Positions 5,780 through 62,248 of a stretch of 64,000 nt of DNA are shown here, one piece after another. The notes beneath the pieces are model-generated. The model saw only the letters and a list, made by a program, of their open reading frames with translations, was not told where the DNA came from and made no database searches. This DNA is from Prevotella sp. Its GTDB lineage: Bacteria; Bacteroidota; Bacteroidia; Bacteroidales; Bacteroidaceae. Within the stretch, counting starts at the first letter, position 1. Every line of letters starts with the position of its first letter. A program made the translations under genes and the position numbers. The DNA lies in the NCBI GenBank assembly GCA_017470345.1, contig JAFUEP010000025.1:62001-126000 (forward strand), in the 5' to 3' direction.

Positions 5780-5783
5780 GTCA

Positions 5784-5804
5784 GTTCATAGTTTATAGTT
5801 CATA
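5784..5804. repeat. Heptamer array between uvrA and cdd
   Basis: Three heptamers GTTCATA, GTTTATA, GTTCATA in the short uvrA-cdd gap, running into the uvrA stop. The reverse-complement unit (GAACTAT) recurs at 36331-36386 and the same unit at 43099-43126. Confidence 0.7.
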
Positions 5805-8736
5805 GTTTTTGCTTCAGGTACTGGCCGGTGATGCTTTGGGCACATTGGGCCACCTCCTCGGGGGTGCCGCATGCGACGAGCTGTCCGCCGCGGTCGCCGC
5901 CGTCAGGGCCCAGGTCGATGATGTGGTCGGCCTGTCGGATGACGTCCATGTTGTGCTCAATAATTAATATGGTGTGACCGCGCTCGATGAGGGCATTCAT
6001 CGACTGCATCAGCCGGGAGATGTCGTGGAAGTGCAGACCCGTGGTGGGCTCGTCGAAGATGAAGAGCGTGGGCTCCTGCCGCTCCTGTCCGATGAAGTAG
6101 GCCAGCTTCACGCGCTGGTTCTCACCGCCCGAGAGGGTCGACGAGCTCTGCCCGAGCTTGATATATCCCAGTCCGACATCGTAAAGCGGACGCAGGCGAT
6201 TCACGATGGTCTTCTGGCCTTCGAAGAAGTCGATGGCCTCCTCGATGGTCATGTTGAGCACGTCGTCGATGTTCTTGTCTTTATAGCGCACGTCGAGGAT
6301 GTCGTGCTTGAACCGATGGCCGTGGCAGACCTCGCACTCCAGGACGAGGTCGGCCATGAACTGCATCTCGACGGTGATGGTGCCGGCGCCCTTGCACTCG
6401 TCGCATCGTCCGCCGTCGGCATTGAATGAGAAGTATTGCGACGTGAAGCCCATTTGCTGGGCCAATGGCTGGTCGGCAAAGAGGTCGCGGATGGCGTCGT
6501 AGGCCTTGACATAGGTGGCGGGGTTCGACCGTGTCGACTTGCCGATGGGGTTCTGGTCGACGAACTCGATGTGGCGTATGGCGTCGATGTCGCCGCCCAG
6601 TCCGCTGTATTCGCCGGGCGCGTCCATCACTTCGCCCAGATGTCGCTTCAGGGCAGGATAGAGGATGCCCTTCACGAGACTTGACTTGCCTGATCCGGAG
6701 ACGCCCGTGACGACGGTCATGACGTTGAGCGGGAAGCGGACGTCGATGCCTTTCAGGTTGTTCATGCGGGCACCGCGCACTTCGATGAATCGGTTCCAGG
6801 GGCGGCGCGAGGGAGAAGCCCCCCCTACGGCCCCCGAGGGGGCTTCTATAGTGTCGAGGCCGAGAAGGTAGCGGATGGTGTAAGAGCGGGTGTCGGGGGC
6901 TGACGGGGGGACTTTTGGTAATGGTCCCTGATAGACGATCTCGCCGCCGAGGCGGCCGGCGTCGGGACCTACGTCGACGAGATAGTCGGCGGCGCGGATG
7001 ACCTCCTCGTCGTGCTCGACTACGACGACGGTGTTGCCCAGTGCCTGAAGTTCCTTGAGCACCTTGATGAGGCGGGCTGTGTCGCGTGCGTGCAGGCCGA
7101 TGCTTGGCTCATCGAGGATGTAGAGCGAACCGACCAGGCTGGAGCCGAGCGACGTGCAGAGGTTGATGCGCTGGCTCTCGCCGCCGGAGAGCGAGTTGCT
7201 CATGCGGTTGAGCGTCAGGTAGCCCAGCCCCACGTCGAGCAGGAAGGTGAGCCGTGAGCGAATCTCGGTGAGCAGGCGTCGGCCCACCTCGGCGTCGTGC
7301 TCGTCGAGCTCGAGACGTTCGAACCATTGCGCCAAGCGCGTGATGGGCATCTCGACGAGGTCGCTGATGCTGCGGCCGCCAATCTTCACGTAGTCGGCCT
7401 CTGGCTTAAGCCGGGTGCCGTGGCAGGTGGGACAGACGGTCTTGCCGCGATAGCGGCTCATCATGACGCGATACTGTATCTTGTATTGGTTCTCCTTCAC
7501 CATCTGGAAGAAGGCATCGATGCAGGGCTTTTCGTGCAGGTCCTTATGGCGGTCGCTGGGCAGTCCGTGCCACAGCTGGTCCTTCTGTCGCTGGGTGAGG
7601 TTATAGTAAGGTTCAAAGATGGGGAAGTCGTCCTTGGCGGCATGCTGGATGAACCAGTCCTTCCATTGGCCCATCTTCTCGCCGTGCCAGCAGACGACGC
7701 AGCCGTCGTAGACGGAGAGGTTGGTGTCAGGTATGACGAGATGCTCGTCGATGCCGATGATGCGTCCGAATCCCTGACATTCCGGGCAGGCACCGACGGG
7801 CGAGTTGAACGAGAAGAGCTGGTCGGTGGGCTCCTCAAACGTGATGCCGTCGGCCTCAAATCGGGTGGAGAAGTCGTAAGTCAGTCCTGACGGCATGACC
7901 ATGAGGCGCATCTGACCCTGACCTTCATAGAAGGCCGTCTCGGCAGAGTCGACAAGGCGGGCGATGGTGTCCTTCGAGTCGTCGGCAGAAAGACGGTCGA
8001 TGACGAGGTAAAGGATCGTCCCAGTGGCCCCCCCTACTGCCCCCGAGGGGGCTTCTATAGACTTGTTGGCAGAGATCTGTTCAAGATAGTCTTCGATGCG
8101 GATGATTTCGCTGCCATCATGGGCTGACACTATTGTAGCCCCCTCGGGGACCGGAGGGGGGGCTTTCCTCTCGGGGGCCGAGGGCGCTGCTGGTGCCATA
8201 ATCCTGCTGTAGCCCTGCAGGATGCATGCCTTCAGCTGTTGCTCAAGGGTGCGTCCTTCGGGGACGACGACGGGTGCCATGACGACAAACTTCGTGCCGC
8301 GCGAGAACTCCAGCATCTTCTGCACGACGTCCTCCGTCGAATGCTTCTTCACCTCCTCGCCGCTGACAGGCGAAAAGGTGTGGCCGATGCGGGCGAAAAG
8401 CAGCCGCAGGTATTCGTAGATTTCAGTCGACGTGCCGACGGTGGAGCGTGGGTTGCGGGCGATGACCTTCTGCTCGATGGCGATGGCGGGCGGAATGCCG
8501 CGTATGAAGTCGCACTCGGGTTTGTTCATTCGTCCGAGAAACTGACGGGCGTAGCTCGAGAGGCTCTCGACATAACGCCGCTGACCTTCGGCATAAAGCG
8601 TGTCGAAGGCCAGCGACGACTTGCCACTGCCGCTGACGCCGGCAATGACGATAAACTTGTTGCGGGGCAGGCGCACGTCGACATTCTTCAGATTGTTGAC
8701 GCGCGCCCCTTTGATTTCGATATAGTCTTTACTCAT
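5800..8736 (-). CDS. uvrA: Excinuclease ABC subunit A with three in-frame repeat insertions
   Basis: DNA damage-recognition ATPase of nucleotide excision repair. Both ABC cassettes are complete: Walker A GVSGSGKSS twice, signatures LSGGESQR and LSGGENQR, Walker B YILDEPSIGLH and FIFDEPTTGLH. Zinc-finger cysteines are present (CPECQGFGR, CPTCHGTR, CDECKGAG, CEVCHGHR). At 978 aa it exceeds the usual 940 or so. The excess is explained by three low-complexity peptides encoded by GC-rich palindromes: KAPPPVPEGATIVS (about 188-202), IEAPSGAVGGATG (about 226-237) and TIEAPSGAVGGASPS (about 628-642, the linker between the two halves). All catalytic motifs are intact, so the protein is expected to be functional. 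Confidence 0.97.
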   Translation of the reverse strand: MSKDYIEIKGARVNNLKNVDVRLPRNKFIVIAGVSGSGKSSLAFDTLYAEGQRRYVESLSSYARQFLGRMNKPECDFIRGIPPAIAIEQKVIARNPRSTVGTSTEIYEYLRLLFARIGHTFSPVSGEEVKKHSTEDVVQKMLEFSRGTKFVVMAPVVVPEGRTLEQQLKACILQGYSRIMAPAAPSAPERKAPPPVPEGATIVSAHDGSEIIRIEDYLEQISANKSIEAPSGAVGGATGTILYLVIDRLSADDSKDTIARLVDSAETAFYEGQGQMRLMVMPSGLTYDFSTRFEADGITFEEPTDQLFSFNSPVGACPECQGFGRIIGIDEHLVIPDTNLSVYDGCVVCWHGEKMGQWKDWFIQHAAKDDFPIFEPYYNLTQRQKDQLWHGLPSDRHKDLHEKPCIDAFFQMVKENQYKIQYRVMMSRYRGKTVCPTCHGTRLKPEADYVKIGGRSISDLVEMPITRLAQWFERLELDEHDAEVGRRLLTEIRSRLTFLLDVGLGYLTLNRMSNSLSGGESQRINLCTSLGSSLVGSLYILDEPSIGLHARDTARLIKVLKELQALGNTVVVVEHDEEVIRAADYLVDVGPDAGRLGGEIVYQGPLPKVPPSAPDTRSYTIRYLLGLDTIEAPSGAVGGASPSRRPWNRFIEVRGARMNNLKGIDVRFPLNVMTVVTGVSGSGKSSLVKGILYPALKRHLGEVMDAPGEYSGLGGDIDAIRHIEFVDQNPIGKSTRSNPATYVKAYDAIRDLFADQPLAQQMGFTSQYFSFNADGGRCDECKGAGTITVEMQFMADLVLECEVCHGHRFKHDILDVRYKDKNIDDVLNMTIEEAIDFFEGQKTIVNRLRPLYDVGLGYIKLGQSSSTLSGGENQRVKLAYFIGQERQEPTLFIFDEPTTGLHFHDISRLMQSMNALIERGHTILIIEHNMDVIRQADHIIDLGPDGGDRGGQLVACGTPEEVAQCAQSITGQYLKQKL
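6814..6854. repeat. Intragenic GC-rich palindrome A (uvrA)
   Basis: GAAGCCCCC and GGGGGCTTC arms (about 6815-6845) flank a CTACGGCC-type centre and are followed by TATAGTGTC. Read on the minus strand it encodes TIEAPSGAVGGASPS. It is nearly identical to copy B (8027-8060) and matches the reverse complement of copy C (8131-8176), including the ATAGTGTC flank. Confidence 0.8.
8027..8060. repeat. Intragenic GC-rich palindrome B (uvrA)
   Basis: Differs from copy A at only about three positions over 34 bp (CTACTGCC instead of CTACGGCC at the centre; same GGGGGCTTCTATAG tail). It encodes SIEAPSGAVGGATG in frame within UvrA. Confidence 0.8.
8131..8176. repeat. Intragenic GC-rich palindrome C (uvrA, inverted copy)
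   Basis: Inverted relative to A and B: CACTATTGTAGCCCCCTCGG and then GGAGGGGGGGCTTTC. On the uvrA coding strand it yields KAPPPVPEGATIVS. It lies about 75 bp from copy B, so B and C form a larger inverted pair inside the gene. Confidence 0.75.
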
Positions 8737-16004: not shown

Positions 16005-16041
16005 TAGAACCGCTTTCCCCGTCGCGAAGCGGTCCTTTTTA
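16005..16041 (+). terminator. feoAB terminator built from two 22-bp-phased repeats
   Basis: ACCGCTT (16009-16015) and AAGCGGT (16027-16033) pair, followed by CCTTTTT. The two half-sites are the inverted and direct forms of the AAGCGGTNCTT core; their 11-bp windows start at 16005 and 16027, exactly 22 bp apart. Confidence 0.75.
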
Positions 16042-20418: not shown

Positions 20419-20481
20419 CTTGGTTTTCCGACAAACGTCGGCTATTATTTAAAACTTTTTAGAACGGAAGCATCCAGTAAA

Positions 20482-20570
20482 CTTACGACACGACGTGACG
20501 GCATGCCGTCACGTCGTGGTTTCATGCCGTCACGTCGTGCCGTCATGGCGTCACGGCGTGACGAGAGTTT
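20482..20570. repeat. 89-bp dispersed repeat, copy 1
   Basis: Contains the 20-bp perfect palindrome CGTGACGGCATGCCGTCACG and further CATGCCGTCACG-type units spaced about 21-22 bp. It is about 94% identical (5 mismatches in 89 bp by eye) to the reverse complement of 52918-53006. It abuts the stop of the TonB receptor at 20582. Confidence 0.85.
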
Positions 20571-22867: not shown

Positions 22868-23422
22868 ATGAAGAAAAAGTTTATCTGCGCCGTTTGTGGA
22901 TATATCTACGAAGGCGATGCTGCTCCCGAGAAGTGCCCCGTCTGCAAGGCTCCGGCCTCGAAGTTCTCTGAACTGAAGGAAGAGGGCGACGTCACTTATG
23001 CCACCGTCCACCGTCTGGGCGACGGCAAGATCGAGGGTGTGCCCGAGGACATGATTGAGGAGCTGCGCAACAACTACCGCGGTGAGTGCGGCGAGGTGGG
23101 CATGTATCTGGCCATGGCCCGTCAGGCCGACCGCGAGGGCTATCCCGAGATTGCCGAGGCCTTCAAGCGCTACGGGCTGGAGGAGGCCGTGCATGCCGCA
23201 CAGTTTGCCGAGCTGCTGGGCGAGGTCGTGTTCGACACGAAGACCAATCTGGAGAAGCGCGCCGCTGCCGAGCACGGTGCCTGCGCCGACAAGTTTGAGC
23301 TGGCCAAGCGCGCCAAGGCCATGGGCTTCGACGCCATCCACGACATGGTGCACGAGGCTGCCAAGGACGAGGCTCGCCACGGTGCCGGCTTCGCCGGGCT
23401 GCTGAAGCGCTACTTTGGGTAA
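22868..23422 (+). CDS. rbr: Rubrerythrin (rubredoxin domain first)
   Basis: 184-aa peroxide-detoxifying non-haem iron protein of the cytoplasm. The rubredoxin domain is N-terminal (residues 6-27, [20 protein letters not shown]: two CxxC pairs), followed by a ferritin-like four-helix domain with carboxylate/His iron ligands ([43 protein letters not shown]). This reversed order marks the 'reverse rubrerythrin' type of anaerobes, which acts as an NAD(P)H peroxidase. It has its own promoter, and its stop codon lies within a heptamer array. Confidence 0.95.
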
Positions 23423-23574
23423 TGTACAATGTACAATGAACAATGTACAATAAATGAAAGGAAAATCCGTTTTATCATTGTTATGGTAAAACGGATTCTT
23501 CATTATAAAGGCCTCCTTTGTGCAGCATTGTACATTCTTCATTGTACATTGTTCATTGTTCATTGTACATTGTT
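23421..23574. repeat. Paired heptamer arrays with internal hairpin
   Basis: AATGTAC-type heptamers (23421-23455) and CATTGTN heptamers (seven copies, 23526-23574) are inverted versions of one unit. Between them AATCCGTTTTA (23464-23474) and TAAAACGGATT (23487-23497) make an 11-bp hairpin. The right array is translated as the signal peptide of the next gene. Confidence 0.8.
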
Positions 23575-26901: not shown

Positions 26902-29677
26902 CGGAGAACAGGTTTAGCTGGCCGGTCATCTCGTCAATCACTTGCTGCTGGCTCTTGCCGGCATCGGGGTCAAGGTTCTCTGCCCCAGAAGGCGAAGCCC
27001 CGCCTGCGGCCCCCGATGGGGCTTCTGTAGTTTCAGGGTCATCGTCTGTCGTGTCCCCCTCGGGGGACGAAAGGGGAGCCTCCTCTGGGAATCTCACGGG
27101 TTCCTGCTCCTCGATGCTCTCAATCTGCCATGTGGAGATGCGTTTGCCCTTGGCCTTGAAGCCCTTGACGGCGATGAACTGCTCGGCATCGATGTCCTCA
27201 GAGCCGCGATATTCGTCGGCTCCGCCGTAGGTGACGCGGATCAGGGGATAGACCTCGTCGCTGAGCAGCACGAGCTTCGACGTCTGGTTGTCGCCCATGA
27301 AGTTCTGCTTGCGCTTGGTGGCCTCCATGAGGAATCGCTTGAGGTAGGGGTAGCCTTGGTTGTCGGCATCGAAGAGCACGGCCGTCCACACCTTGTCGGG
27401 CTGGAACTTCTCGATGCGCAGGATATTCTCCTCGTAGTGGTTGTTGGCGTCGAAGTTGGTCAGATAGAAGTCGCCGTTCCTCAGGACGACGAGAATCTGG
27501 TCGTCGTCGAAGAATTCGCCCAGCAGGCGTCCGTGGTCGTCGTAGTTCAGACGGTTGACATCGGGGTCGAACCAAACCTTGCGGCCGCCCAGCGTGGAGT
27601 GGCCCTGCGACTTGAGGGTGATGCGGTGTACGGGCTTCTTGGTCAGCAGGTTACCCTTCGAGGCGCGCCCTTTGATGATAATGTCGGCAAAGGAGCGCTC
27701 GAGGAAGATGCTGGCGCGCGGGTTCTGGGCCTGGACGGAGGCGTCGAGGGTCACCTTGATGACCTCGGCCTCGCCGTTGGGGTTGACGGTGAAGTACATC
27801 ACCTTCGAGCCCGGCGTGCCCTGCGTCAGGTCGTTCTCGCGGTCGCGCGTGATGCCCGTGATGTTGAATCGCTTGATGAAGTAGGGACCCTGGCGGCCGT
27901 CGCGATAGACCACATTATATATGGTGCGCTTGTCGTTCTTCTTGAACACGCCGAGCCACAGCACGTTCTTGCCCACGAAAAGCTTCTCGGCCACACGTAC
28001 CACTTTATATTTGCCGTCCTTATAGAAGAGGATGACGTCGTCGATGTCGGAGCAGTTGCAGACGTATTCGTCCTTCTTCAGCCCCGTGCCGATGAATCCC
28101 TCCTGGCGGTTGATGTAGAGCTTCTGGTTGGCCTCGGCCACCTTCGTGGCCTCGATGGTGTCGAAGTTGCGCAGCTCCGTGAGGCGCGGGTGGTCCTTGC
28201 CGTACTTGTCCTTGAGGAACTGGAACCAGTCGGCCGTCACCTCCGTGAGGTTGGCCAGGTCGCGCTCTATCTGGTCGATCTCGTCCTGCAGCCGCGCCAT
28301 CAGCTCGTCGGCCTTGTCCTTGTTGAACTTCAGGATGCGCTGCATCTTGATCTCGAGCAGGCGCAGGATGTCGTCCTTGGTCACCTCGCGCACCAGTTGC
28401 GGGTAGTAGGGCGTCAGGCGCTCGTCGATGTGCTCGCAGACGGCGTCGATCGTAGGGGCCTGTTCGAACTTCCTGTCTTTATAGATGCGCTCCTCGATGA
28501 AGATCTTCTCGAGCGAACAGAAGTGGAGCTGCTCCAGGAGCTCGCCGCGGCGGATCTCCAATTCCTGGCGGATGAGGTCCTTGGTGCGGTCGACGGAGTG
28601 GCGCAGCACGTCGCTGACGGTGAGGAACTGGGGCTTCTGGTCGGCAATGACGCAGCAGTTGGGCGAGATGTTGATCTCGCAGTCAGTGAAGGCATAGAGG
28701 GCGTCGATGGTCTTGTCGCTCGACACACCGGGGGCCAGGTGCACCTGGATCTCCACCTCGGCCGAGGTCAGGTCAGTGACGTTGCGGGCCTTGATCTTGC
28801 CCTTCTCGATGGCCTTGGTGATGCTTTCGCAGAGCGTGTTGACCGTCTTCGAGAAGGGCAGCTCGCGGATGACGAGCGTCTTCTGGTCGAGCTTCTCGAT
28901 CTTGGCGCGCACTTTCAGCACGCCGCCGCGCTGGCCGTCGTTATATTTCGACACGTCGATGGAGCCGCCCGTCTGGAAATCAGGGTAGAGATGGAACTCC
29001 TCGTCGTGCAGATAGCTGATGGCGGCATCGCAGATCTCGTTGAAGTTGTGGGGCAGAATCTTCGACGACAGGCCCACGGCAATGCCCTCGGCGCCCTGCG
29101 AGAGGAGCAGGGGGAACTTGACGGGCAGCGTGATAGGCTCCTTGTTGCGCCCGTCATAGGAGAGCTGCCACTCCGTCGTCTTGGGATTGAACACTGTGTC
29201 GAGGGCGAACTTCGATAGGCGGGCCTCGATGTATCGGGGCGCAGCGGCACGGTCGCCCGTGAGGATGTTGCCCCAGTTGCCCTGCGTGTCGACGAGCAGG
29301 TCCTTCTGTCCCAGTTGCACCAGGGCGTCGCCGATGGAGGCGTCGCCGTGGGGATGGAACTGCATGGTGTGGCCCACGATGTTGGCCACCTTATTATATC
29401 GTCCGTCGTCCATGCGCTTCATCGAGTGCAGGATGCGCCGCTGCACGGGCTTCAGGCCGTCCTCGATGTGGGGGACGGCGCGCTCGAGAATGACGTAGGA
29501 GGCATAGTCGAGGAACCAGTTCTGATACATGCCGCTCAGGTGGTGGACGGCTGATGCGTCGAATCGGTTGACGGGCTTGTAGTCGGAGTGCCCTTCAATG
29601 ACTCCGCCGGCCTCGTCGTTATCTGTTGTTCCTGACATTAGCTCTTCGCCAATGTCGTCTCTTATTTCATCGTCCAT
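26888..29677 (-). CDS. parC: DNA topoisomerase IV subunit A, with in-frame repeat insertions in its tail
   Basis: 929 aa, the DNA-cleaving subunit of a type IIA topoisomerase. The breakage-reunion domain is clear: LERAVPHIEDGLKPVQRRILHSM, GHTMQFHPHGDASIGDALV, and the catalytic Tyr in AAPRYIEARLSKFA. It resembles the Bacteroidetes ParC branch (MYQNWFLDYASYVILERAVP), not GyrA (no SYIDYSMSVI). Coiled coil and C-gate lie near 370-480, with a degenerate C-terminal beta-pinwheel afterwards. The tail (about 866-896) carries EEAPLSSPEGDTTDD and TTEAPSGAAGGASPS, encoded by the same palindromes as in uvrA. The start at 29677 (MDDEIRDD) follows a promoter at 29704. Confidence 0.92.
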   Translation of the reverse strand: MDDEIRDDIGEELMSGTTDNDEAGGVIEGHSDYKPVNRFDASAVHHLSGMYQNWFLDYASYVILERAVPHIEDGLKPVQRRILHSMKRMDDGRYNKVANIVGHTMQFHPHGDASIGDALVQLGQKDLLVDTQGNWGNILTGDRAAAPRYIEARLSKFALDTVFNPKTTEWQLSYDGRNKEPITLPVKFPLLLSQGAEGIAVGLSSKILPHNFNEICDAAISYLHDEEFHLYPDFQTGGSIDVSKYNDGQRGGVLKVRAKIEKLDQKTLVIRELPFSKTVNTLCESITKAIEKGKIKARNVTDLTSAEVEIQVHLAPGVSSDKTIDALYAFTDCEINISPNCCVIADQKPQFLTVSDVLRHSVDRTKDLIRQELEIRRGELLEQLHFCSLEKIFIEERIYKDRKFEQAPTIDAVCEHIDERLTPYYPQLVREVTKDDILRLLEIKMQRILKFNKDKADELMARLQDEIDQIERDLANLTEVTADWFQFLKDKYGKDHPRLTELRNFDTIEATKVAEANQKLYINRQEGFIGTGLKKDEYVCNCSDIDDVILFYKDGKYKVVRVAEKLFVGKNVLWLGVFKKNDKRTIYNVVYRDGRQGPYFIKRFNITGITRDRENDLTQGTPGSKVMYFTVNPNGEAEVIKVTLDASVQAQNPRASIFLERSFADIIIKGRASKGNLLTKKPVHRITLKSQGHSTLGGRKVWFDPDVNRLNYDDHGRLLGEFFDDDQILVVLRNGDFYLTNFDANNHYEENILRIEKFQPDKVWTAVLFDADNQGYPYLKRFLMEATKRKQNFMGDNQTSKLVLLSDEVYPLIRVTYGGADEYRGSEDIDAEQFIAVKGFKAKGKRISTWQIESIEEQEPVRFPEEAPLSSPEGDTTDDDPETTEAPSGAAGGASPSGAENLDPDAGKSQQQVIDEMTGQLNLFSDDEF
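26992..27083. repeat. Intragenic GC-rich palindromes D and E (parC)
   Basis: Copy D (26992-27033) aligns with copy A of uvrA over about 42 bp with roughly eight differences (GAAGCCCC, CCCCGATGGGGCTTCTGTAG). Copy E (27048-27083, CCCCCTCGGGGGAC and GGGGAGCC) is inverted, like copy C. D encodes TEAPSGAAGGASPS, E encodes EEAPLSSPEGDT. Confidence 0.75.
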
Positions 29678-36296: not shown

Positions 36297-36386
36297 GTGA
36301 GAGGTGAGAAGTGAGAGGTGAGAAGTCTGAGAACTATGAACTATGAACTATGAACTATGAACTCTGAACTCTGAACTCTGAACTAC
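36297..36386. repeat. Heptamer arrays between miaA and lpxA
   Basis: Two adjoining arrays, both with a 7-bp period: GTGAGAG/GTGAGAA four times (36297-36324), then eight GAACTNT units (36331-36386: GAACTAT four times, GAACTCT three times, GAACTAC). The lpxA stop codon is inside the last unit. Confidence 0.85.
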
Positions 36387-39641: not shown

Positions 39642-39836
39642 CGAAATAAATGCGAAACGGCGGCATACTGGCACTACTTTTTGTGTTTTTTTATTGATAA
39701 CGGGGGCTTGCGGGGGGCGAATGACACGGCTGCCGGACGCCTTTTCGAGGACTCGTTTTGTCATTATTTTTTCGAATTGTTCTGTCGATAATGACAAGTC
39801 GTTGGTTTTCAGGCGGGTAGCTGTGACGGAAAAATG

Positions 39837-39915
39837 AAGCGGTGCTTTTTGATGAGAGAAGCGGTGCTTTTCGGGTTGAGAAGCGGTGCTTTTTGGGCCG
39901 AAAAGCGGCGCTTTT
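39837..39915. repeat. 22-bp tandem repeat, four direct copies of AAGCGGTGCTTTT
   Basis: Cores start at 39837, 39859, 39881 and 39903 (the last AAGCGGCGCTTTT), exactly 22 bp apart and all in the same orientation. The rest of the 485-bp gap between the HD hydrolase and lpxD (39609-40093) shows no gene; it also holds a hairpin CCCTGCGG/CCGCAGGG (39991-40011) close to the HD gene's 3' end. Confidence 0.85.
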
Positions 39916-40093
39916 CTTTCGTCGGGAGGGGATTTGTCAATAAAAGTGACAGTGGATGCTTGGCGATTATAGATGCAAATGGGGGCGGATCCCTGCGGCT
40001 GAACCGCAGGGCACACTTAAAGCGCCGCGAAGGGCGCGGGGGGATTCGCGGGCGAGGGCGCGGCGCGATTCTCGGGGCGGGGGTGGGGGAGGG

Positions 40094-42267: not shown

Positions 42268-43095
42268 TCAGAGTCCGTGGCGCGTGAGCTCGAGGTCCAT
42301 CTGCTGCTGCAGTTCGCGGGCCTTGTTGCCGGCCACCTCTGCGAAGTGGTCGTCCTGGGAGGCATAGATGATGCCGCGCGAGGAGTTGACCAGCAGACCG
42401 CAGTCGTCGTTCATGCCGTAGCGGCACACCTCCTCGAGCGAACCGCCCTGGGCTCCGACGCCGGGGACGAGCAGGAAGTGGCGCGGGGCCACGCGGCGCA
42501 CGTCCTCGAACATGCGGCCCTGAGTGGCGCCGACGACGTACATCATATTGTCCTCCGTCGCCCATTGCTGGCTCGTGCGCAGCACGCGCTCGAAGAGGCG
42601 TTCGCCCTGTGCATCGGCCGTCAGCTGGAAGTCATGGCTGCCCTTGTTGCTCGTCAGGGCCAGCAGGACGACCCAGCGGCCTTCATACTCGAGGAAGGGC
42701 GTCACGGAGTCCTCGCCCATGTAGGGGGCGACGGTCAGTGCGTCGACGTCGTATTCTTCGAAGAACGTGCGGGCGTACATCTTCGACGTGTTGCCGATGT
42801 CGCCTCGCTTGGCATCGGCGATGATGAGGTGGTGGGGATGGTGCTCCTTCAGATAGCGGATGGTCTTGACGAAGGTCTCCATGCCGCTGAGCCCGTAGGC
42901 TTCATAGAAGGCCAGGTTGGGCTTGTAGGCCACGCAGTAGGGGGCCGTGGCGTCGATGATGGCTCGGTTGAACTCGAAGACGGGGTCATAGAGGTCGAGC
43001 ACGCACTGGGGCATCTTGCGCGGGTCGGTGTCGAGGCCCACGCAGAGGAAGCTTCGCTTCTTCTTAATCTGTTCAATCAGTTCTTGTCGTGTCAT
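42268..43095 (-). CDS. pyrF: Orotidine 5'-phosphate decarboxylase
   Basis: 275 aa, last step of UMP synthesis. It is of the longer type 2 family: [42 protein letters not shown], catalytic [18 protein letters not shown] (D-K-x-x-D) and [15 protein letters not shown]. It follows prfA after a gap with an AGTTCAT heptamer array. Confidence 0.95.
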
Positions 43096-43098
43096 ATC

Positions 43099-43126
43099 AG
43101 TTCATAGTTCTTAGTTCATAGTTCAC
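43099..43126. repeat. AGTTCAT heptamer array between prfA and pyrF
   Basis: Four heptamers AGTTCAT, AGTTCTT, AGTTCAT, AGTTCAC at a strict 7-bp period, running into the prfA stop codon. Same unit as at 5784-5804 and the reverse complement of that at 36331-36386. Confidence 0.75.
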
Positions 43127-44232
43127 AGTTCCGTCTCCTTCATGCGCTCGGCATTCTCGGCCACGGTGAGGGCGTCGATCATGGGCTGGATGTCGCCGGC
43201 GAGGAAGCCCTGCAGGTCGTGGGTGGTGTAGCCGATGCGATGGTCGGTGACGCGGCCTTGGGGGAAATTGTAGGTGCGTATCTTGGCCGAGCGGTCGCCC
43301 GTGGAGACGAGGGTCTTGCGGCGCGAGGCGATGTCGTCGACGTACTTCTGGTGCTCCTTGTCGTAGATGAAGGTGTAGAGTCTCGAGAGGGCGCGCTCCT
43401 TGTTCTTAGGCTGGTCGCGCGTCTCGGTGCACTCGATGAGAATCTCCTCGGTCTCGCCCGTGTTGGGGTTGCGCCACATGTAGCGCAGACGGACGCCCGA
43501 CTCCACCTTGTTGACGTTCTGGCCACCGGCTCCTGAGGAGCGGAAGGTGTCCCACTTGATCTCGCCTTCGTTGATGTGGACCTCGAACTTGTCGGCCTCG
43601 GGCAGCACGGCTACGGTGGCGGCACTGGTGTGCATGCGGCCCTGAGTCTCCGTGGCTGGCACGCGCTGGACGCGGTGGACGCCTGACTCGTATTTCAGCG
43701 TGCCGTAGACATCGGCGCCTGAGACGGCGAAGTCGATCTCCTTATATCCTCCCACGGCGCCCTCAGAAACGTCGGTGACGCTGAGCTGCCAGCCCTTCGA
43801 CTCGCAGTACGACTTGTACATCTTGAACAGGTCGCCGGCAAAGAGGCAGGCCTCGTCGCCGCCAGTGCCCGCACGGATTTCCATCTGCACGTTCTTGGCG
43901 TCCTCGGGGTCTTTGGGGATGAGGGCCAGCTTGATCTCCTCCTCAATCTGCGGCTGGAGGGCCTCGTTGGCGGCGAGCTCCTCGCGGGCCATCTCCTTCA
44001 TCTCGGGGTCGTCCTCATGGGCGAGGATGTCCTTGGCCTCGCGGATGCCGTTGAGGCATGCGACGTAGCGGCGGCGGGCGTCCATGATGTCGGAGAGATC
44101 CTTGTACTCCTTGGTCAGTCGGACGAACCGCTGCTGGTCAGCGATGACGTCGGGGTCGGTGATGAGGGTCGACACCTCTTCGAAGCGGCTCTCCAGTCCG
44201 TCGAGCTTCTGTAGTATGCTGTTGTTATCCAT
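43123..44232 (-). CDS. prfA: Peptide chain release factor 1
   Basis: 369 aa, recognises UAA/UAG stop codons. The PAT-type anticodon-mimic region appears as RVPATETQGRMHTSAATV and the catalytic GGQ as FRSSGAGGQNVNKVESGVRL. The start overlaps purM by 8 nt. Presence of RF1 means UAG is a functional stop in this organism, which matters for the amber codon in the HEPN gene at 54161. Confidence 0.97.
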   Translation of the reverse strand: MDNNSILQKLDGLESRFEEVSTLITDPDVIADQQRFVRLTKEYKDLSDIMDARRRYVACLNGIREAKDILAHEDDPEMKEMAREELAANEALQPQIEEEIKLALIPKDPEDAKNVQMEIRAGTGGDEACLFAGDLFKMYKSYCESKGWQLSVTDVSEGAVGGYKEIDFAVSGADVYGTLKYESGVHRVQRVPATETQGRMHTSAATVAVLPEADKFEVHINEGEIKWDTFRSSGAGGQNVNKVESGVRLRYMWRNPNTGETEEILIECTETRDQPKNKERALSRLYTFIYDKEHQKYVDDIASRRKTLVSTGDRSAKIRTYNFPQGRVTDHRIGYTTHDLQGFLAGDIQPMIDALTVAENAERMKETEL

Positions 44233-52917: not shown

Positions 52918-53006
52918 AAACTCTCGTCACGTCGTGACGCCATGACGTCACGACGTGACGGCATGAAACCACGCCGTGACGGCATGCCGTCACGACGTGA
53001 CGTAAG
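52918..53006. repeat. 89-bp dispersed repeat, copy 2 (inverted)
   Basis: Reverse complement of the repeat at 20482-20570, with about 5 mismatches in 89 bp and the same 20-bp palindrome CGTGACGGCATGCCGTCACG. If translated it gives PSRRGFMPSRRDVMASRRDE-type frames, which are artefacts. Confidence 0.85.
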
Positions 53007-53165
53007 TTAGCGACAACGGCCTTAATCCTTATTTCTACTGCTTGATTCTATTGTTGGTTACTACTTTTATGAAAGAGGCACAGCCATACACCTATTCTTC
53101 CCCTTTCTCTTCATACTCCAACATTAGTTCGTCTGCCTAACTAATAGTTATTACGCCGTTTTGCT

Positions 53166-62151: not shown

Positions 62152-62163
62152 TCCGAAAAGTCA

Positions 62164-62248
62164 AAGCGGTACTTTGAATGCAGAGAAGTGCCGCTTTGAG
62201 CTACGCAAAGTACCGCTTCTCACATCGCGAAGCGGTACTTCTTTTTTT
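62164..62248 (+). terminator. Double hairpin terminator of serA from four 22-bp-phased repeats
   Basis: 11-bp cores at 62164 (direct), 62186 (inverted), 62208 (inverted) and 62230 (direct), each exactly 22 bp from the next. The first two pair (AAAGCGGTACTT with AAGTGCCGCTTT, one wobble). The last two pair (AAGTACCGCTTC with GAAGCGGTACTT) and are followed by CTTTTTTT, a textbook intrinsic terminator. Confidence 0.85.

Follow-up and report, generated by a model that had tools for sequence, protein, structure and literature searches.

Paired palindromic repeats of bacteria, known as REPINs (REP doublets forming hairpins) and BIMEs (bacterial interspersed mosaic elements), consist of a pair of hairpin repeats in inverted orientation, separated by a short spacer; they are essentially extragenic and are tied to the REP-associated tyrosine transposases (RAYTs). 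In-frame palindromic repeats in housekeeping genes were reportedly regarded by Ogata in 2002 as a unique but recurrent feature of Rickettsia. Later, in-frame copies were also reported for repetitive extragenic palindromes (REPs), of which they form a minority in several species; the available sections of PMC3733652 describe single and double REP insertions in open reading frames (ORFs) of several species, and in both Opitutus terrae and Thioalkalivibrio the uvrA gene carries double insertions. More than half of the intragenic inserts are given there as dimers or groups encoding 20 to 30 amino acids. The same sections place CGTC repeats in the phylum Bacteroidetes and do not name Prevotella. 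For the Rickettsia palindromic elements (RPEs), extracts of PMC10969869 and PMC3767692 state that nearly half of the copies in R. conorii are genic, and a table of RPE carriers in R. japonica includes an excinuclease ABC gene. A 2025 survey (PMC12306157, in extract) defines REPs as seldom overlapping coding regions. Here we describe a short, GC-rich, dispersed hairpin repeat found in the uvrA gene of a Prevotella sp. genome, in a stretch of 64,000 nucleotides of contig JAFUEP010000025.1 (positions 62,001 to 126,000; the window). The repeat is probably a non-autonomous, REP/RPE-like hairpin element that occupies variable loops, where it is tolerated owing to the one open frame that it offers in each orientation.

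The uvrA gene carries two units of the repeat, and a further unit lies elsewhere in the window:

5800..8736, minus strand: uvrA, 978 amino acids, carrier of two units (NCBIfam TIGR00630, 1058 bits; best PDB match 2r6f)
6814..6855, minus strand: arm A, a right (sense) arm of AAG type encoding TIEAPSGAVGGAS (from sequence and alignment)
6856..6889, minus strand: native UvrA residues SYTIRYLLGL between the arms of the first unit (S[YH]T..YL recurs in orthologues)
6890..6915, minus strand: putative decayed left arm, partner of A, encoding PPSAPDT (by eye from sequence and alignment)
8027..8060, minus strand: arm B, right (sense) arm of AAG type of the second unit, SIEAPSGAVGGA (from sequence)
8061..8129, minus strand: 69-nt stretch from B to C that includes the native UvrA residues EIIRIEDYLE (from orthologue alignment)
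8130..8165, plus strand: arm C, left (antisense) arm of the second unit, KAPPPVPEGATI (from sequence and alignment)
8166..8191, plus strand: tandem decayed left arm adjoining C, encoding APAAPSAPER (inverted repeat, by eye)
26997..27080, minus strand: further unit, EAPLSSPEGDTTDDDPETTEAPSGAAGGASPS, read in frame as part of the C-terminal tail of a gene resembling topoisomerase IV/gyrase A (NF009397; the partial protein scores 699 bits, under the cut-off of 780)

Arms A (6814-6855) and B (8027-8060) are identical at 33 of 34 bases, and the region of C (8126-8173) aligns with A in reverse complement, with 85% identity over 48 bases, in agreement with the near identity noted in a preliminary description of this locus. 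That description counted three in-frame insertions in uvrA. The frame is indeed open through all three arms, the 978-residue reading frame passing through them, but the arms make up two units and not three separate insertions: B and C, already recognized as an inverted pair, are the convergent arms of one unit, an architecture that is common in this genome. With a 22-base core (up to 3 mismatches), 4 matches were found in the window against 0.01 expected from shuffling, the fourth being at 27009-27030. RNA folding gives −74 kcal/mol (z = −6.1) for the B-C stretch and −60.5 kcal/mol (z = −4.6) for a full unit from another locus (L011). The genome also holds a second UvrA paralogue, which is 46% identical (G000:C41:202194-204401).

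UvrA proteins were aligned for the 30 best-scoring of 95 genomes matched, and 14 of the 30 were also aligned at the DNA level. Insert A occurs in the window's genome (G000) only and represents a net gain of 24 nt relative to the 13 other uvrA genes aligned as DNA. Clear B/C-type arms are present in G000 and G034 among the 30, and also in G058, a 99% complete relative outside the 30. The inserts are therefore absent from most UvrA orthologues, as had been anticipated (A in 1 of 30, clear B/C-type arms in 2 of 30). A proline-rich, GC-rich stretch in the B/C loop of G050 may be a decayed arm. Compared with the solved UvrA structure 2r6f, insert A falls at a gap, and a segment of 63 residues (181-243) is opposite 23 residues that have no match, flanked on both sides by good matches.

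The genome of the window is a 2.67-Mb draft (61.6% complete), in which a 17-base core (up to 2 mismatches) has 25 matches and its reversed control has none. A BLAST search of the same genome with arm A gave 41 rows at E values up to 10, the last few of which are chance matches. In G058, 70 arms in 53 units were found, again with no match for the reversed control. Distribution within the genus is patchy: a 20-base pattern (1 mismatch) matches 14 of 90 genomes, G000 included, and is without match in 76, with 55 copies in G058, 44 in G034, 27 in G071 and just 1 to 4 in seven carriers. No match to this pattern came from the 59 genomes sampled in other families of the order, and the reversed pattern, used as a control, gave no hit. 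The preliminary description had named the same peptides in distant genera, or a lack of further copies in the genome, as findings that would speak against an inserted element; the whole-genome search that it proposed gave many further copies, and the 59 genomes of other families gave no match. A scan of named genomes yielded at least 110 loci; the 80 matches listed are all from Prevotella, Prevotellaceae or Bacteroidaceae records, and among them several records name the ruminant gut in their title. Viral contigs contained no exact match to the repeat.

The full unit is about 90 nt long and consists of two hairpin arms of about 35 nt that face each other around a spacer, approximately AGCCCCCCTTTCRGCCCCCGAGGGGGCTACTATAG, spacer, CTATAGAAGCCCCCTCGGGGGCCGTAGGGGGGGCTTC, where CTACTATAG or a similar sequence closes the left arm and CTATAGAAGCCCCCTCGGGGGC opens the right one. 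The spacer is mostly 9 to 27 nt (range, −6 to 102). The unit most often seen is the convergent pair, which accounts for 68 of 106 genic and 22 of 48 other units in an earlier, narrower classification, and many seemingly single arms have a diverged partner. The gap between the arms is a multiple of three in all 69 genic pairs. Two types of arm are distinguished: in the TAG type, GTAG lies directly 5' of the C5-TC-G5 stem (GTAG-CCCCC), and in the AAG type this position is GAAG. The right (sense) arm in genes is of AAG type in 99 of 131 cases, and 31 of the 51 arms outside genes are of TAG type.

The loci that were fetched contain 344 arms in 212 units, 6 of which lie at edges and were dropped, leaving 206 that were classified; genic status was assigned by a codon-usage score for which these same loci were the training set. 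One coding frame passes without a stop through 146 of the 206 units, 22 are at gene ends, and 38 are neither; the 146 genic units correspond to 115 site clusters, and this number and the 212 units are somewhat inflated by arm pairs split over two loci. One register per orientation is used by 246 of the 250 arms in the genic units, the four off-register arms being confined to one gene at two loci (L179 and L170), and by 33 of 34 arms at gene ends. The earlier classification gave 106 of 154 units as genic and 172 of 176 arms in register (10 edge units dropped). In G058, examined by eye, 32 or 33 of the 53 units follow the usual register within genes or at gene ends, and 1 is in a gene but in another register.

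Six-frame translation of one full natural unit (L002) gave one stop-free frame per orientation, and both are the frames that are used. The palindrome had been described as free of stops in both orientations, which holds for one frame in each, the other four of the six having stops. Because of these stops, the register reflects filtering against truncation and not a special choice of peptide; such filtering likely accounts for most of the frame bias, which had at first suggested selection on peptide quality. Substitutions in the arms, counted by index modulo 3 (0/1/2), are 56/126/142 for sense arms, 184/126/207 for antisense arms and 58/53/67 outside genes, with arm subtypes as a confounding factor.

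Of the 22 sites inspected in the window's genome, 21 lie within a long ORF and follow the usual register; two of the 21 are at the C-terminus (MurA and GltX, the latter with a second site inside), and the remaining site of the 22 is outside an ORF, apparently just upstream of a gene start. Family searches placed ArgS, GltX, PurL, MurA, UvrA, a GltD-like protein, a GH92 enzyme, an M6 protease and a 2-oxoacid oxidoreductase above the cut-off, and LeuS (538 vs 548 bits, partial protein), ParC-like, ABC-F, KdtA-like and other proteins under it; 2 of the 19 host proteins searched had no family match at 1e-10. Further hosts are presumably TypA-, MetH-, glutamine-synthetase- (GlnA-), PyrG- and GltB-like, names given from the protein sequences and not from a family search. 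As judged by eye, the TypA-like gene has the element in L123, L133, L180 and L190 and is without it in L137, and the glutamine-synthetase-like gene has it in L068 and L271 and is without it in L100. Also by eye, at one site of the MetH-like gene L131 has a single-arm insert that L145 and L289 lack, and at another site L145 has an insert that L131 lacks. In the PyrG-like gene both L139 and L297 have the element, and the inserts have drifted in sequence.

The status of the repeat as a dispersed element lying in frame is well supported, and the mechanism of its movement is uncertain. Copying would be the way in which it has spread through some Prevotella; what is observed is dispersal and patchiness, from which the act of copying is presumed. 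A landing in a gene would survive if the net length added is divisible by three, if it falls in the frame that is open for that orientation and if the site is a variable loop, a position that follows from the alignment for UvrA and is assumed for the other hosts. To judge by frame and length, the insert would then be translated as a linker of small residues, APPSAPEGATI...TIEAPSGAVGGAS, and would drift in sequence. Single arms may lie alone or flank native residues, and the arms seem to move or convert separately.

Several observations weigh against a simple version of this account. Native residues lie between the arms in the UvrA and GltB-like genes, which does not fit a one-step insertion of 90 nt, and at the TypA-like site L133 and L190 have their arm types swapped about a similar spacer; together, these two features suggest that each arm can move or be converted on its own. 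The gap between arms is also a multiple of three in 20 of 23 non-genic pairs, so that this spacing is largely a trait of the family and weak evidence for coding at each site. In G058, 19 or 20 of the 53 units are outside genes by eye; genes usually make up about nine tenths of a bacterial genome, and the genic share of units in G058 therefore indicates no preference for genes. The unusual point is that the repeat is not kept out of them. No target duplication of the kind that marks a MITE is evident by eye at the aligned loci, where inverted arms are present and boundaries are fuzzy, and arm A folded alone as RNA is unexceptional (z = −1.3). The search for a mobilizer adds to these points: Y1_Tnp domains occur in 101 of 149 genomes without visibly tracking the repeat, a RAYT above the cut-off is present in just 2 of the 9 carriers among the 95 genomes searched (G034 and G007), and no arm was found at 8 Y1/RAYT loci scanned (2.4-5 kb each, 5 from carriers) in draft genomes.

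One of two routes for the mobilization step, possible but short of probable, would be a trans-acting single-strand (HUH/Y1) transposase. One form of it, in which the arms are GTAG-tagged REPs moved as inverted pairs by a RAYT, is rather doubtful. Convergent pairs as the commonest unit, the GTAG directly 5' of the stem in the arm type that prevails outside genes and the RAYTs of the two carriers are consistent with it; the arm-free RAYT loci, the GAAG in place of GTAG in the commonest genic sense arm, the flanking of the G034 RAYT by its own, different hairpins, and the presence of RAYTs above the cut-off in the non-carriers G011, G028 and G041 of the genus (12 of the 95 genomes searched in all) argue against it. 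Nor was a RAYT flanked by or co-occurring with the repeat, as in a REPIN or REPtron, found in these genomes, whose draft state limits this result. The other route needs no transposase: hairpin-driven template switching, slippage or ectopic conversion would copy arms between sites. The swapped arm types at the TypA-like site, the native residues between arms and tandem SGAVGGAS expansions favor such copying, a tentative possibility; against it, full units with the same arm-type order are found again in unrelated genes, which looks like whole-unit copying. A broader and equally tentative reading takes coding sequence as a main habitat of the repeat in some Prevotella, where arms or pairs move or convert between the loops of essential proteins and leave native residues between them; more generally, variable loops would take up whatever dispersed repeat the genome carries, palindromes in some species and 7- or 9-base arrays in others.

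A domesticated linker or mRNA structure, kept for its benefit to the host protein, would be in keeping with sites shared across loci of different genomes (four loci for TypA-like, two for PyrG-like, three genomes for UvrA B/C), but it is improbable given hosts that are functionally unrelated, inserts that drift in sequence in the PyrG-like gene and the 76 of 90 genomes of the genus without a match. It is more improbable still that the inserts are untranslated, either bypassed by ribosomes, as reported for the mitochondrial elements of Magnusiomyces, or removed from the RNA. The mRNA hairpins are strong, and bypassed palindromes exist elsewhere (PMC6649704, in extract), yet neither bypass nor removal needs the stop-free, in-register inserts that are kept here. 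An artefact of assembly or binning, or a chance GC-rich similarity, has a negligible probability: most records among the matches listed are metagenome-assembled genomes (MAGs), and G000 and others are drafts, but the repeat is present in records of several different MAG series, and neither the absence of matches for the reversed pattern nor the expectation of 0.01 in the window fits chance.

With regard to the described systems, the intragenic REPs in uvrA (PMC3733652) are a closer precedent than the Rickettsia elements. As in the intragenic GTAG/CGTC REPs of the available sections of that paper, the arms are stem-loops of 20-40 nt in many copies, often form inverted dimers and lie partly inside ORFs. 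Those REPs are mostly intergenic, whereas most of the Prevotella copies found are genic (146 of 206 units through genes, and 33 or 34 of 53 in G058), so the repeat is not predominantly extragenic. The GTAG/CGTC tag at the stem end is seen in the TAG-type arms, but the commonest genic arm has none, and an association with a RAYT was not found. An inverted pair of hairpins with a short spacer is shared with REPINs and BIMEs, from which the repeat differs in being largely genic. The comparison with Rickettsia drawn in the preliminary description holds for the way of working, a dispersed palindrome in frame in unrelated ORFs (PMC10969869, PMC3767692, in extract); RPEs are 100-150 bp long and belong to intracellular alphaproteobacteria. 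The coding palindromes of nematomorph mitochondria (PMC6649704, in extract) are likewise inverted repeats within coding sequence, but both of their arms encode conserved native residues, and the excerpt does not describe them as a dispersed element.

The Prevotella repeat is, therefore, a further family of coding REP-like elements with an unusually large intragenic share. It works like REPs and RPEs, and membership in either is not claimed: the tag is inconsistent, the copies are mostly intragenic and no RAYT partner was found in the draft genomes, and the RPEs belong to a different phylum. A literature search limited to CC-licensed PMC papers, in the portions retrieved, named no earlier report of such a repeat in Prevotella. 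A gut genus with mostly coding copies and insert-free sister species provides a natural series of loop insertions at known sites, by which the movement of the repeat and the lengthening of proteins through selfish DNA become testable questions. Annotators should be warned that small-residue inserts of this kind in these proteins are derived from repeats.

RAYT-related genes were also observed in other contexts. The RAYT gene of G034 is located between long inverted hairpins, CAGGCGAATTGCAAATTCGCCTG (L313, 1366-1423, 1988-2045 and 2630-2683), and resembles a TIRtron-like element. In G000, a RAYT/Y1-like domain (59 bits, under the RAYT cut-off) is part of a 1202-residue open frame (L056, G000:C35:31819-32103), and frames of 1133-1270 residues with such a domain are present in other genomes as well.

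In other members of the genus, the same UvrA loops carry different repeats (L205, L206, L211, L214 and L216; by eye, also L203 and L212). Self-repetition of 7 or 9 bases in the 30 uvrA genes is found in the two variable loops for 6 of 7 stretches, and in L160 a coding loop of an RND-type gene contains a TTCACTTTTCACTC array. The repeat in the UvrA loop of G020 was considered as a comparable family and was rejected, as it occurs at just 3 places in its genome at up to 3 mismatches.

The window contains further repeats. Heptamer arrays (AGTTCAT and AATGTAC), some as inverted pairs, are located at 5783-5810, 23421-23571, 36331-36377 and 43092-43131. Two palindromic stretches of 91 nt, rich in CGTGACG and 95% complementary, are 32 kb apart (20480-20570 and 52918-53008). 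Dispersed hairpin-like AGAAGCGGTGCTTTTT repeats are found at 16006-16040, 39836-39916 and 62163-62243, and tandem CACACTGAGATTT 21-mers and a cluster of TCGTTATAACGA palindromes occupy 1292-1372 and 2875-2966.

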